64,000 bases of DNA from Acidobacteriota bacterium (GTDB lineage Bacteria > Acidobacteriota > Terriglobia > Terriglobales > Acidobacteriaceae): assembly GCA_021791875.1 (NCBI GenBank), contig JAJYVU010000012.1, positions 1 through 64,000 on the forward strand, in the 5' to 3' direction. The stretch's first letter is position 1. The number at the start of each line of letters is the position of its first letter. The notes beneath the pieces are model-generated. The model did not search any database, had not been told where the DNA came from, and saw nothing but the letters and a program-made list of their open reading frames with translations. Shown here in pieces: positions 45,643 through 50,199 of the stretch. A program made the position numbers and the translations under genes.

Positions 45643-46074
45643 ATGAGCGGGGAGTTGCCGGGAACGAAGATCGATCACCTGGGTATTGCGGTGAAGAGTA
45701 TTGCGCAGGCACGTGCATTTTACGAGGCCCTGGGGCTGCGTGTGACGCATGAAGAGACGGTGGAGCATGAGCGCGTGAAAACGGCGATGCTGCCGGTGGG
45801 CGAGAGCCGCGTGGAACTACTGGAGCCGACGGAGGAGGATTCGCCGGTGGGGAAGTTTCTAGCCAAGCGGGGTGAAGGGATGCATCATGTGGCGCTTCAG
45901 GTAGAGGATATTACCGCAGCGATGGAGCGGCTGAAGGCGCTGGGTGCGCGGTTCATTTCTGACGAGGTGAAGGTGGGCGCCGGAGGGCATTTGTATTTCT
46001 TTGTGCATCCGTCGAGCGCAGGCGGCGTGCTGGTTGAGATTGTGCAGCCAGCGGCGGAGAGTACACACGGATGA
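45643..46074 (+). CDS. mce: Methylmalonyl-CoA epimerase
   Basis: A 143-residue vicinal-oxygen-chelate protein. Metal ligands appear in KIDHLGIAVKS (His), MHHVALQVEDI (His) and GVLVEIVQP (Glu). The GEGMHHVALQVEDI and FIHPSS-like (FFVHPSSAGGVLVEIVQ) blocks are characteristic. It converts the S- to the R-methylmalonyl-CoA needed by the mutase. ATG at 45643 follows the meaB stop; the end overlaps tsaB by four bases. Confidence 0.93.
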   Translation: MSGELPGTKIDHLGIAVKSIAQARAFYEALGLRVTHEETVEHERVKTAMLPVGESRVELLEPTEEDSPVGKFLAKRGEGMHHVALQVEDITAAMERLKALGARFISDEVKVGAGGHLYFFVHPSSAGGVLVEIVQPAAESTHG

Positions 46075-46706
46075 GAGTGCTGGGGGTCGATACCTGCGGA
46101 CCGGAGGGCAGCGTGGCGCTGGCTGAGGTGAACGAGCAGGGCGTGATGGTTTTGCAGGCGCGGCATCTGGCGGGGCGGACGTATTCAGAGGATCTGATGC
46201 CGGCGATTCGCGAGATGCTGGAGGCCGCTGGGGTTGCTGTTGGTGACCTGGGCGCAATCGTGGTGGTGCGCGGTCCGGGCAGTTTCACGGGCGTACGGGT
46301 GGGCCTGAGCACGGCGAAAGGGCTGGCGCAGGCGGCGGGGCTGCCGGTAATCGGGGTTTCGCGGCTGCAGGTGCTGGCGCAGAAGGCGGGGAGCAGAGCC
46401 GCGGTGCTGGATGCCGGGCGAGGCGAGATGTATTTTGGCCTGGCCGACGATGAGGCTGGCGAAGCGTTGCTGAGGCCAGCGGAGATACGCGAGCGGGCGC
46501 CGGAGTACGAGATTGCCTGCTGTGAGACAAAGGCGGCGCAGGCGCTGACCGGAGTGCGGGTAGTGGATGCTCCAGAAGCGGAGGATGCGCTGCGGTTCGC
46601 GCAGGGGCGGATTCTGAACCGGGATTTTGACGATCTGTCGGCGATGGATGCGCATTACCTGCGGCGGTCAGAGGCCGAACTTGTGGCAGAGCGGCGGGGG
46701 CAATGA
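46071..46706 (+). CDS. tsaB: tRNA threonylcarbamoyladenosine biosynthesis protein TsaB
   Basis: A 211-residue ASKHA-fold partner of TsaD for the universal t6A modification at tRNA position 37. The N-terminal LGVDTCGPEGSVAL, the SEDLMPAIREML helix and VVVRGPGSFTGVRVGLSTAKGLA are diagnostic. The gene overlaps rimI by four bases, the common tsaB-rimI pairing. Confidence 0.93.
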   Translation: MRVLGVDTCGPEGSVALAEVNEQGVMVLQARHLAGRTYSEDLMPAIREMLEAAGVAVGDLGAIVVVRGPGSFTGVRVGLSTAKGLAQAAGLPVIGVSRLQVLAQKAGSRAAVLDAGRGEMYFGLADDEAGEALLRPAEIRERAPEYEIACCETKAAQALTGVRVVDAPEAEDALRFAQGRILNRDFDDLSAMDAHYLRRSEAELVAERRGQ

Positions 46707-47206
46707 TCCAACTGCGCCCGATGAGTAAGGGCGATGTGGAGTGGGTGTTGGCGCTGGATCATGAAATGAGGACGGCTCCGCACTGGTCGCCGGAGATCTA
46801 CCGGACATATCCAGAGGCAGGAGAGCCCGCCGGCGTGCTGCGGCGATTTGCTTTGGTGGGTGAGGTGGACGGTGTGCGCGCAGGAATTGCGCTGGGGCGT
46901 CTACTGCTGGACGGTGTGGAAAACGCGTGCGAGGTGGAATGGATAGCCGTGGAGCCGGCCATGCGCCGGAAGGGAGTTGGGCGTGCGCTGATGGAGGGCG
47001 TTGAAGGTTGGTGCCTCAAGCATGGCGGGCTTCGCCTGATGCTTGAGGTGCGCGCTGGAAATATAACTGCACAAAGACTTTACGGGGAGGCAGGTTGGGT
47101 GGAGGTTGGGCGACGGAGGGGGTATTACAAGGATCCGGTAGAGGATGCGGTGCTGATGGAGCGAGTGCCGGTCGACAGTGGAAAATTCTCGACAGAAAGC
47201 CCTTGA
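46703..47206 (+). CDS. rimI: Ribosomal-protein-alanine N-acetyltransferase RimI
   Basis: A 167-residue GNAT enzyme of the RimI type, thought to acetylate the N terminus of ribosomal protein S18. The acetyl-CoA motif reads AVEPAMRRKGVGRALMEGV, and the C-terminal RLYGEAGWVEVGRRRGYYKDP block is the RimI signature. Coupled to tsaB. About ten extra residues (DSGKFSTESP end) follow the domain. Confidence 0.9.
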   Translation: MIQLRPMSKGDVEWVLALDHEMRTAPHWSPEIYRTYPEAGEPAGVLRRFALVGEVDGVRAGIALGRLLLDGVENACEVEWIAVEPAMRRKGVGRALMEGVEGWCLKHGGLRLMLEVRAGNITAQRLYGEAGWVEVGRRRGYYKDPVEDAVLMERVPVDSGKFSTESP

Positions 47207-47273: not shown

Positions 47274-47492
47274 ATGGCTACGGACGTAGATGTAAAGCCG
47301 GACAGCGAAGCAATTCGCCGTCTGGAAGAGCAACATCGTCACTATGAGCAACAGCTCCAAGCCCTGATGCAAAAGCCCTACCTCTCAGCCGACGAGCAAC
47401 TGGAAGAAGTCCGGCTCAAGAAAATCAAACTCCGATTAAAAGATGAAATCGCCGCATTGAGTTCGCCCGCGGCGAATTTGCATTTTGCCTGA
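47274..47492 (+). CDS. DUF465/YdcH-like small coiled-coil protein
   Basis: A 72-residue protein dominated by one charged helix: IRRLEEQHRHYEQQLQALMQKPYLSADEQ then LEEVRLKKIKLRLKDEIAAL. The xxPYLSxxEQxEExRLKKxKLxLKD pattern is that of DUF465 (YdcH). GGAGG eight bases upstream decides the ATG at 47274 over a GTG at 47265. Function is unknown. Confidence 0.85.
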   Translation: MATDVDVKPDSEAIRRLEEQHRHYEQQLQALMQKPYLSADEQLEEVRLKKIKLRLKDEIAALSSPAANLHFA

Positions 47493-47624: not shown

Positions 47625-48275
47625 ATGGTACGAGACGGCTATTACTACGGATTTGCCCTTGTGGCGGTGGCGGTGGTGGTGCATCTGCTCACGGGCGGGT
47701 GGGCCTGGACGGCAATCCCTTTTCTATTGGCGGCGTTTTTTCTGTGGTTCTTTCGGGATCCGCACCGGGAAATTCCGCAGGGTGTGGGACTCGTGGTTTC
47801 TCCTGCCGATGGCAAACTTACGGAGATTGCCAGAGTGCAGACGCCAAGCGGGGAACGCCTGCGGCTGAGCATTTTTCTGAGTGTTTTTAATGTGCATGTG
47901 AACCGCGCCCCGGAAGCCGGAACCGTGCTGGGGGTGACCTATCGGCATGGGCTGTATCTGAATGCGATGAACCCTGAATCGGCCGAGAAGAATGAGCAGA
48001 ACACAGTGGTGATTGGCACGACGGACGGCAACGAAATCTGCTTCAAACAGATAGCGGGACTGCTGGCCCGGCGCATCGTATTTACCAAGCGCGAAGGCGA
48101 CCGCGTGCAGCGCGGCGAACGCGTGGGGTTGATTAAATTCGGATCGCGCACCGATCTGCTGCTGCCGGGAAATTTTGAGGTGCTGGCGAAGGAGGGACAG
48201 CGCGTAAAGGGCGGTTCGACGGTGCTGGCGCGGCGACCGGAGCCGGGCGGCGCGCAGACGGAGATTGCGGATTGA
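47625..48275 (+). CDS. psd: Phosphatidylserine decarboxylase
   Basis: A 216-residue, short (archaeal/Sinorhizobium-type) pyruvoyl enzyme that turns phosphatidylserine into phosphatidylethanolamine. Two N-terminal membrane helices lead into [20 protein letters not shown] and [13 protein letters not shown]. Self-cleavage should occur at Gly173-Ser174 in [12 protein letters not shown], the Ser becoming the pyruvoyl group. The stop overlaps the pssA start, so the two steps of the pathway are coupled. Confidence 0.95.
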
Positions 48276-49162
48276 ACGGTTTGGCGCGTTTGTCCAGTCT
48301 GAAGACCGGGGACCGCGGTGCAACGGCGGAGCGTAGCGACCGGCGGCGGCGCGGCATGTATATTTTGCCGTCGATGTTCACGGCATTGAACATCGGCGCG
48401 GGATACTTTGCGATTACGCAGAGCCTGCAGGGTTCGACGCTGCACCCGGAATATTTTGATCATGCAGCGCTGGCGATTGCGATCGCGATTCCATTTGACG
48501 CGCTGGATGGACGCATCGCGCGCATGACGGACACGACGAGCGATTTTGGGCGCGAGCTGGATTCGCTGGCAGATGTGATCACGTTTGGCGTGGCACCGAG
48601 CATACTGGCCTTTACCTGGGGCTTTCGTATGCTGCCTGAGACGATGAATCCGGTGCTGCACCAGAAGCTGCTGCAGTTTGGCGCATTCTTGTGCTTTCTT
48701 TTTCTGCTATGCGGGGCAAGCCGGCTGGCGAGATTCAATATCAGCCACGATCCTGTGCCGAAGAATCCGGGACGGCCGGGGCGGAAGTACTTTGTCGGGA
48801 TGCCGATACCGGCAGCGGCGGGCGTGATTGCCGCTGTGGTGCATTTTTTTGGAGGGATCCCGGTATCGATGGCGCCGGTTGCCATTGTATGGATGCTGCT
48901 GGTGGGATTTCTTGGATTTCTGATGGTGAGCACCTGGAGATTCTGGAGCGGAAAAGAATTAAACTTTACGAACCGGCAGCCCTTCCAGTGGATTGTGCTG
49001 TTCGGGCTGGTGCTTTACGCACTGGTGGCATTCTCTGACTACGTACTGGCTGCGATGGCGCTGACTTATATGTTTTCGGGCGTCATTGCGCGGCTGGCCT
49101 ACTCCTGGCAGCGGCACCGCAGAGCCGCTCACACGCATAGCGTTTCCACGACGACCCATTGA
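48272..49162 (+). CDS. pssA: CDP-diacylglycerol-serine O-phosphatidyltransferase
   Basis: A 296-residue integral membrane enzyme that makes phosphatidylserine. The CDP-alcohol phosphotransferase motif [26 protein letters not shown] is complete in its D-G-A-R...G...D...D spacing, followed by about seven helices. The TTG at 48272 overlaps the psd stop by four bases; an ATG at 48356 (MYILPSMF) is a plausible shorter start because the first 28 residues are basic and poorly defined. The next gene starts at its stop codon. Confidence 0.93.
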
Positions 49163-50199
49163 TGCCCGACCAATACAAAATCGCCATAGTTGGAGCCTCG
49201 TCTCTTCGGGGCAAGGAATTGAACGAAGCGTTAACCGAGTCTCCCTTTGCCAATGCCGACTTTGTCCTGATGGACGAAGAAGATCAGATTGGTCAGTTGG
49301 AGAGCGTCGGCGACGAGATGACGTTTGTGCAGCGGATCGACCCGACATCGTTTGAGCGGGCTGATTTTGTGTTTTTCGCGGACTCGGAGGAGTCTACGCA
49401 GAAATACTGGAAAATCGCCCAGCGAGCCGGGGCGAGCATTGTGGACATGACGGCTGGGATTGAAGGAGAAGCGGGCGTGCTGGTGCGCGCACCCTGGGTG
49501 CAGGACCATAGCGAGGATGTGGGCGAGACGCCAGGGCTGGCGACTGCGGCGGTGGTGCCCGCGCACCCGGTGGCGGTGGCCGTGGGCCTGCTGACGCAGC
49601 GGCTGGAGCAGGTGGGCGCGCTGCGGTGCGCTTCTGTCACGGTGCTGGAGCCCGCGTCAGAATACGGACGCGAGGCCATGGATGAACTGCACCAGCAGAC
49701 GGTGAATCTGCTGAATTTCCAGACACTGCCGAAGTCGATTTACGACACGCAGGTGGCGTTTACCGCGACTCCGGTGTTCGGTGAGGCAGGAAAGTTCCGT
49801 TTGCCGGAGCGTGAAGCGAGAATTCGACGGCATTATGCGGCACTGCGAGGTGTCGCTCCAGTGGTGCCGCTGCAACTGATCCACACGCCGGTTTTTCACG
49901 GCTACGGCCTGTCGATGTCAATCGAGTTTGCGGACCCGGTGGCGCTGGAACATGTGGAAGCAGCACTGCAGGGCGAGCATGTGGACGTGATCATGGGCGA
50001 CAGTGATGCACCGACGAATCTGAGCTCGGCCGGACAGGGCGATGTGCTGGTTCGGGTGCGGACGGCGGATGGATCGCAGGAGAAGACTTCGCAGTTCTGG
50101 GTATGGGCGGCGCTGGATAATCTGCGCATAGCCAGTCTGAATGCCGTGGCATGCGCGATGGAATTGCAGCGGCTTCGGCCCCGGGGCAAAGTCCAATAA
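49162..50199 (+). CDS. Aspartate-semialdehyde-dehydrogenase-like protein lacking the catalytic Cys
   Basis: A 345-residue protein with the Asd/ArgC two-domain plan: an N-terminal NAD(P) fold (KIAIVGASSLRGKELNEAL, ADFVFFADSEES) and a C-terminal dimerisation domain (FTATPVFGEAGK, HTPVFHGYGLSMSIEF). Where true Asd has the NPNC(S/T) active site, this one reads VVPAHPVAVAV, without cysteine. It should not form the acyl-enzyme, so dehydrogenase activity is doubtful. E. coli Usg is a similarly related non-Asd protein. It overlaps pssA by one base, so it is tied to phospholipid genes. The function is unknown. Confidence 0.8.
   Translation: MPDQYKIAIVGASSLRGKELNEALTESPFANADFVLMDEEDQIGQLESVGDEMTFVQRIDPTSFERADFVFFADSEESTQKYWKIAQRAGASIVDMTAGIEGEAGVLVRAPWVQDHSEDVGETPGLATAAVVPAHPVAVAVGLLTQRLEQVGALRCASVTVLEPASEYGREAMDELHQQTVNLLNFQTLPKSIYDTQVAFTATPVFGEAGKFRLPEREARIRRHYAALRGVAPVVPLQLIHTPVFHGYGLSMSIEFADPVALEHVEAALQGEHVDVIMGDSDAPTNLSSAGQGDVLVRVRTADGSQEKTSQFWVWAALDNLRIASLNAVACAMELQRLRPRGKVQ

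Follow-up and report, generated by a model that had tools for sequence, protein, structure and literature searches.

The gene that directly follows pssA in the window (the whole 64,000-nucleotide stretch of acidobacterial DNA analyzed here) encodes a protein that is related to aspartate-semialdehyde dehydrogenase (Asd) but lacks its catalytic cysteine, and it belongs to a pssA-linked family found across much of the Acidobacteriota rather than being an isolated oddity. We propose the name AsdL for this Cys-less family, which is predicted to have the Asd fold, carries a His-Pro pair at the site, and lies directly downstream of pssA. Judged from its residues, AsdL appears to be dead for the Asd reaction, and the label aspartate-semialdehyde dehydrogenase would be a misannotation of its genes. 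Our tentative reading, to which we give somewhat less than an even chance, is that AsdL is kept in the psd-pssA operon because it assists or regulates the biogenesis of phospholipid (phosphatidylethanolamine, PE) and of the envelope. To our knowledge, there is little insight beyond a few model bacteria into the way in which phosphatidylserine synthase and decarboxylase are balanced with the other steps of envelope construction. AsdL, a putative pseudoenzyme that much of the phylum keeps as a single copy beside psd and pssA in their operon, would be a concrete candidate for such control.

The AsdL Gene, Its Operon, and Its Fold

The features of the locus are collected in Table 1. The two Asd domains that the first-pass annotation had assigned to this frame are both recovered by Pfam (Semialdhyde_dh, 2.7e-11; Semialdhyde_dhC, 1.2e-10), at the coordinates it gave. 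The best NCBIfam model, NF004224, scores 125.7 bits and lies under its cut-off of 284, while NF005957 gives 84.9 bits (cut-off 273) and asd_B (TIGR01296, PRK14874) 67 bits (cut-off 324). The closest PDB sequence is 2hjs, the "USG-1 protein homolog" of Pseudomonas aeruginosa (E 6.5e-23).

Table 1. Features of the psd-pssA-AsdL Locus in the Window
Feature	Position	Strand	Basis or remark
TsaB-like gene	46071..46706	+	PF00814; upstream neighbor retained in relatives
GNAT acetyltransferase, RimI-like by position	46703..47206	+	PF00583; upstream neighbor retained in relatives
psd, phosphatidylserine decarboxylase	47625..48275	+	PF02666, 158 bits; NF003678 above cut-off
pssA, CDP-diacylglycerol-serine O-phosphatidyltransferase	48272..49162	+	TIGR00473, 107.7 bits (cut-off 107); PF01066; TTG start assumed
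TGATG, pssA stop/AsdL start junction	49160..49164	+	sequence
AsdL, Cys-less protein of predicted Asd fold, 345 aa	49162..50199	+	translation, Pfam, NCBIfam, PDB sequence match, fold, conservation
VVPAHPVAV, residues 131-139 of AsdL	49552..49578	+	stands where the NPNC(S/T) site would be

The stop codon TGA of pssA (49160-49162) and the ATG of AsdL (49162-49164) have a single base in common, which bears out the stop/start junction described earlier. The overlap of psd with pssA that had also been claimed is found as well, the psd stop at 48273-48275 overlapping the TTG at 48272-48274, provided that this TTG is the start of pssA as we have assumed; an alternative in-frame ATG at 48356 would abolish it. 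The promoter scan found 0 sites against 1.2 expected, and the terminator-like sites (8 against 3.9 expected) were set aside as evidence. A 72-aa DUF465 frame (PF04325, E 5.1e-10) is located between the GNAT gene and psd, at 47274-47492 on the + strand.

An AlphaFold2 model of AsdL, calculated with 66 family sequences, takes the Asd fold with both domains at a mean pLDDT of 94.7 and a pTM of 0.93. When compared with the PDB by Foldseek and VIA-align, the model superimposes on 2hjs with a Z of 37.3 and an rmsd of 2.5 over 323 residues, tied with the other top entries, 2gz3 (Z 37.3) and 2r00 (Z 36.7).

The Remodeled Active Site

In a MAFFT alignment with the Asd of Vibrio cholerae, the Asn and Cys columns of the NPNC site correspond to His135 and Pro136 of AsdL, in agreement with the earlier observation that the catalytic cysteine is gone and that VVPAHPVAV stands in its place. 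A displaced catalytic cysteine, which together with Asd activity had been named as counter-evidence to the earlier interpretation, was sought. AsdL has only two cysteines, C156 and C331, and the family does not conserve a Cys at either column (the C331 column is Cys in 14 of 57 sequences). As the columns around the site likewise show no conserved Cys, this candidate is ruled out.

The extent of the changes was evaluated by counting residues in 66 AsdL rows picked for depth against 14 canonical Asds, the seven short proteins of family f31 (see below) being left out. The Asn and Cys of the NPNC site are present in all 14 canonical enzymes, while in AsdL the catalytic Cys is found in 0 of 66 rows and the Asn before it in 4 of 65. 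Of the Asd substrate residues, Arg99 is kept in 4/64, Lys214 in 2/63, and Arg236 in 4/66 rows. Asn94 is present in 0/66 rows, and the window's AsdL has Glu163, Glu101, His241, Arg220, and Tyr248 at the columns of the Asd Gln, Arg, Arg, Lys, and His, respectively. The cofactor site has changed to a similar extent. The central Gly12 of the dinucleotide loop remains in 3 of 66 rows and is replaced by Ser or Thr in 57, the Ser71-Ala-Gly segment of Asd is lost (Ser71 in 0/66), and Arg39 and Ser40, which we take to be the 2'-phosphate end of the cofactor site, are mostly acidic or other residues, with Glu in 33 and Asp in 7 of the 66 rows at the Arg39 column. The substrate and NADP residues of Asd are thus mostly gone, which argues against aspartate semialdehyde or aspartyl phosphate as a ligand bound in the old way.

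A different set of residues is conserved instead, namely H135 (53/65), P136 (58/66), and E52 (60/66), together with F245 (66/66), H246 (57/66), and W313 (59/66). They align with or lie beside active-site columns of Asd, and they would share one cleft. A new conserved state, in place of drift, points to a new use of the protein. What AsdL retains in common with asd_B (TIGR01296, PRK14874), besides the domains and the predicted fold, are the Glu-Leu and Ala-Phe-Asn motifs, i.e., Glu175 (65/66), Leu176, and Ala199-Phe200-Asn, and also Asp319, whereas AsdL is set apart by the loss of the Cys, of the Arg and Lys that hold the substrate, and of the dinucleotide loop.

These residues lend themselves to another explanation, in which AsdL is a new enzyme whose rebuilt site (His135, Glu167, and His246) catalyzes some other reaction and perhaps uses NAD(H) or no cofactor at all. 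Columns at or beside the Asd catalytic positions have indeed acquired a conserved set without drifting, and the acidic residues at the Arg39 and Ser40 columns fit a loss of NADP and leave NAD open. However, the exchange of the loop glycine for Ser or Thr and the loss of Ser71-Ala-Gly make cofactor binding doubtful, and Glu167 is conserved in just 39 of the 66 rows. A new enzyme of this kind is therefore possible but, in our estimate, unlikely.

Linkage to pssA across the Acidobacteriota

The first-pass annotation had proposed a survey of the gene order in other acidobacteria and had named a lack of linkage to pssA in relatives as counter-evidence. The survey gives the opposite result, linkage being the rule in both sets of loci that were examined. 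The window's AsdL, used as the query, was matched in 55 of 61 genomes (its own and relatives), and a contig scan with AsdL kept 80 of 112 relatives, all titled acidobacterial, with loci of Granulicella, Edaphobacter, and Terracidiphilus strains among them. The close-relative set comprises 109 loci with an AsdL gene (L005-L113), and in 106 of them the gene immediately upstream, in the same orientation, is pssA. The exceptions are a locus at a contig end (L055), one in which the gene has moved (L008), and one with pssA 1.1 kb upstream (L085). The junction of pssA and AsdL could be measured in 68 cases; the two genes overlap in 33 of these, mostly by 4 bases, and lie within 30 bases in 18 more. 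Further upstream, psd is kept and frequently the GNAT and TsaB-like genes as well.

For a deeper search, an alignment of 35 AsdL members (A1) was run against 297 genomes of the phylum at a threshold of 1e-8. It matched 137 of them, some true asd_B Asds and weak matches being among the hits. The deeper set comprises 92 loci (L114-L206 without L146), with 60 places taken from these matches in addition to earlier ones. AsdL is linked to pssA in 69 of the 92, and these copies are Cys-less or, in one case (L135), cut ahead of the site. The catalytic Cys occurs in 0 of 69 pssA-linked copies that have a residue at that column, a count made on 70 linked rows, the window's own included, minus the contig-cut L135. 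An intact NPNC site is found in 6 of the 92 loci, all six without linkage to pssA. A further 16 loci are Cys-less and unlinked (L134, eight of the NPHP type, and the seven short f31 proteins), and the last, L116, is a contig-cut piece. Since the arrangement recurs in this way in close and deeper relatives, it is far beyond chance.

In L134, from a genome of the window's own family (G019), AsdL is 60% identical to the window copy and has been relocated from psd-pssA. The f31 loci (L192-L197 and L206) encode very divergent AsdL-like proteins of ca. 270-290 aa where the ends are clear, without linkage to pssA, and a scan of one of them (L194) yielded nothing in either Pfam or NCBIfam.

Downstream Genes and Genomes without AsdL

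The genes downstream of AsdL vary by lineage and are often envelope-related. In loci of the window's class, AsdL is followed by an LptE-like gene and then by HolA, with LptE BLAST matches downstream of AsdL in 14 loci. In other lineages an MsbA-like ABC exporter is encoded there along with YicC and Gmk (guanylate kinase), and a third arrangement combines a permease of the FtsX/MacB type and an ABC ATPase. The unlinked NPHP-type loci retain the exporter or its YicC-Gmk neighbors. The mixed character of these genes (HolA, YicC, Gmk) speaks against the main reading, in that the operon may simply line up genes related to growth instead of forming one pathway. In one locus (L123, 7625-9265, - strand), AsdL and an LptE domain are contained in one open frame, in which an internal start is possible.

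Genomes without AsdL were also considered. PssA was searched in 20 of them and matched in 19, and in all of the 18 psd-pssA loci examined a match to AsdL at E<1 is absent. In three of these loci (L239, L242, and L253) an exporter-like frame comes directly after pssA, identified as ABC_membrane plus ABC_tran by a domain scan in L239 and judged by eye in the other two. As the exporter-like frame can follow pssA directly, AsdL seems to fill, and to be able to leave, a slot between them. In a genome of the window's own family (G302, locus L237), tsaB-GNAT-psd-pssA is present with no match to AsdL. The protein is thus missing from some genomes with psd-pssA, G302 included, which indicates that it is dispensable and that PE synthesis does not need it.

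Proposed Role of AsdL

A regulatory or accessory role in PE synthesis is our best guess for AsdL, suggested by its genomic context. In the mechanism that we envisage, AsdL would be made in step with PssA and would dimerize, probably through the retained dimerization domain; the remodeled cleft would bind a ligand or a partner, and AsdL would in this way tune PssA or Psd. Alternatively, it might link the supply of phospholipid with the export of LPS or lipoproteins, the genes of which lie downstream in many relatives. The nine unlinked loci, i.e., L134 and the eight of the NPHP type, which keep AsdL without an adjoining pssA, speak against the main reading, as do the seven unlinked f31 loci and the genomes that have psd-pssA but no AsdL. 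In a more specific version, AsdL would be a pseudoenzyme dedicated to PE synthesis, as a subunit or as a sensor, that arose once from a bacterial Asd in an early acidobacterial ancestor, had its cleft refitted for a new ligand, and keeps the PssA/Psd flux in step with the export of LPS or lipoproteins. Taken with all of its parts, this version is rather doubtful.

The interpretation given in the first-pass annotation holds in part, in that a degenerate paralogue that is no longer an Asd has become fixed among phospholipid genes. As found here, this paralogue is under purifying selection and coexists with a true Asd encoded elsewhere. The binding or regulatory role suggested in that annotation is drawn from the context, and its idea that AsdL perhaps senses serine or aspartate-derived metabolites is speculative and, for the aspartate-derived ones, meets the difficulty of the lost Asd substrate residues. 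In the open-access papers searched, the acidobacterial AsdL clade, the His-Pro site, and the linkage to psd-pssA were not found; papers that mention Asd, Psd, and PssA together deal with Klebsiella drug targets and rumen degradation.

Relation to Usg and Origin of AsdL

Cys-less Asd paralogues as such are already known, in the form of Usg of Escherichia coli and PA3116 of Pseudomonas aeruginosa, with which the first-pass annotation drew no comparison. The phylum-wide linkage to psd-pssA and the remodeled site appeared in none of the papers searched. Usg (NF005957/PRK08040) and PA3116 (2hjs) resemble AsdL in having the Asd fold and no Cys at the catalytic column, and all three have Gln in place of Arg in the QAPVF stretch. 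They differ from it in sequence (25-29% identity), in having no His-Pro pair at the site, and in the genomic context, which is truA or fimV for Usg and psd-pssA for AsdL. AsdL also scores under the cut-offs of both Usg models, NF004224 and NF005957, as given above. In Pseudomonas, the true asd gene adjoins the PA3116-type usg gene, and the locus of P. aeruginosa that we inspected (L209) has the order leuB-asd-usg-fimV-truA. In the PA3116-type protein of this locus, the residue immediately after the catalytic column is a Cys (SSPC), which is not the case in AsdL. A published report calls usg a putative Asd within a pdxB-usg-truA-dedA operon (PMC6358828).

It has to be considered whether AsdL is simply the acidobacterial Usg, that is, a member of one ancient Cys-less branch of Asd with a common function and no tie to lipids. 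The best PDB match (2hjs), the best NCBIfam model (NF004224), and the Arg to Gln exchange seen in E. coli Usg and PA3116 favor such a link, and a joint clade of AsdL and Usg is not rejected by the AU test (p 0.207, with only two Usg rows). In the free ML tree of 59 rows, however, AsdL forms one clade of 42 rows on a long stem with a support of 100/100, apart from the two Usg rows, which fall among the gammaproteobacterial Asds (76/99, then 70/58, 73/98, and 78/99). Two slow NPHP-type AsdLs (L163 and L164) are, moreover, scored higher by PRK14874 and asd_B than by NF004224 and NF005957, and the two Usg operons given above differ from the context of AsdL. We accordingly regard a common Usg branch as improbable, and we favor an independent loss of the Cys in AsdL and in Usg.

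A Usg-like linkage of AsdL to truA and a Pseudomonas-like linkage to leu genes were both looked for, and neither was found: E. coli TruA had no acidobacterial match in loci L001-L145 or among the AsdL neighbors, and E. coli LeuABCD had no match among the neighbors near AsdL. A plasmid search, from which 8 of 65 matched records were retrieved, returned ordinary Asds and the Usg of enterobacteria and Pseudomonas.

The True Asd of the Genome

The genome has three matches to PF02774, i.e., an asd_EA protein, a protein (C25) that is ArgC-like by its neighbors and sequence, and AsdL. The asd_EA protein (L001, 450 bits), which is followed by an aspartokinase frame, is the genome's own Asd. It belongs to the same superfamily as AsdL but differs from it by its intact site (NPNC, Gln, Arg, and His) and its aspartokinase neighbor, and its presence rules out that the genome depends on AsdL as its sole Asd. 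Among the genomes drawn, asd_EA is found at 1e-60 in 217 of 297 from the phylum and in 36 of 36 from the window's family, in which the AsdL alignment matches 35 of 36.

The constant presence of a true Asd in the window's family would also suit a model in which AsdL serves that enzyme as a subunit or chaperone, forming a mixed dimer, and in which the adjacency to pssA reflects shared expression only. The dimerization domain is the better kept part of AsdL, as seen at the Glu175, Leu176, and Ala199-Phe200 columns. The Asd in question, however, is of the archaeal/fungal type, a distant branch encoded elsewhere, and two genomes with an asd_B-type Asd (G054 and G314) also carry AsdL, so that the type of the partner does not follow. 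We consider a mixed dimer very improbable.

Selection on AsdL

The Nei-Gojobori dN/dS values of AsdL against three relatives are 0.074, 0.168, and 0.112, which are rough because dS is high (1.0-2.4), and those of pssA, calculated in the same way, are similar (0.080, 0.132, and 0.106). AsdL is thus under purifying selection. That it is a decaying pseudogene riding along in the operon, as the loss of the catalytic residues and the absence of the gene from some lineages might suggest, is hardly credible, since the open frame and the dN/dS of 0.07-0.17 rule out a simple pseudogene and the family-specific conserved residues are retained over the depth of the phylum.
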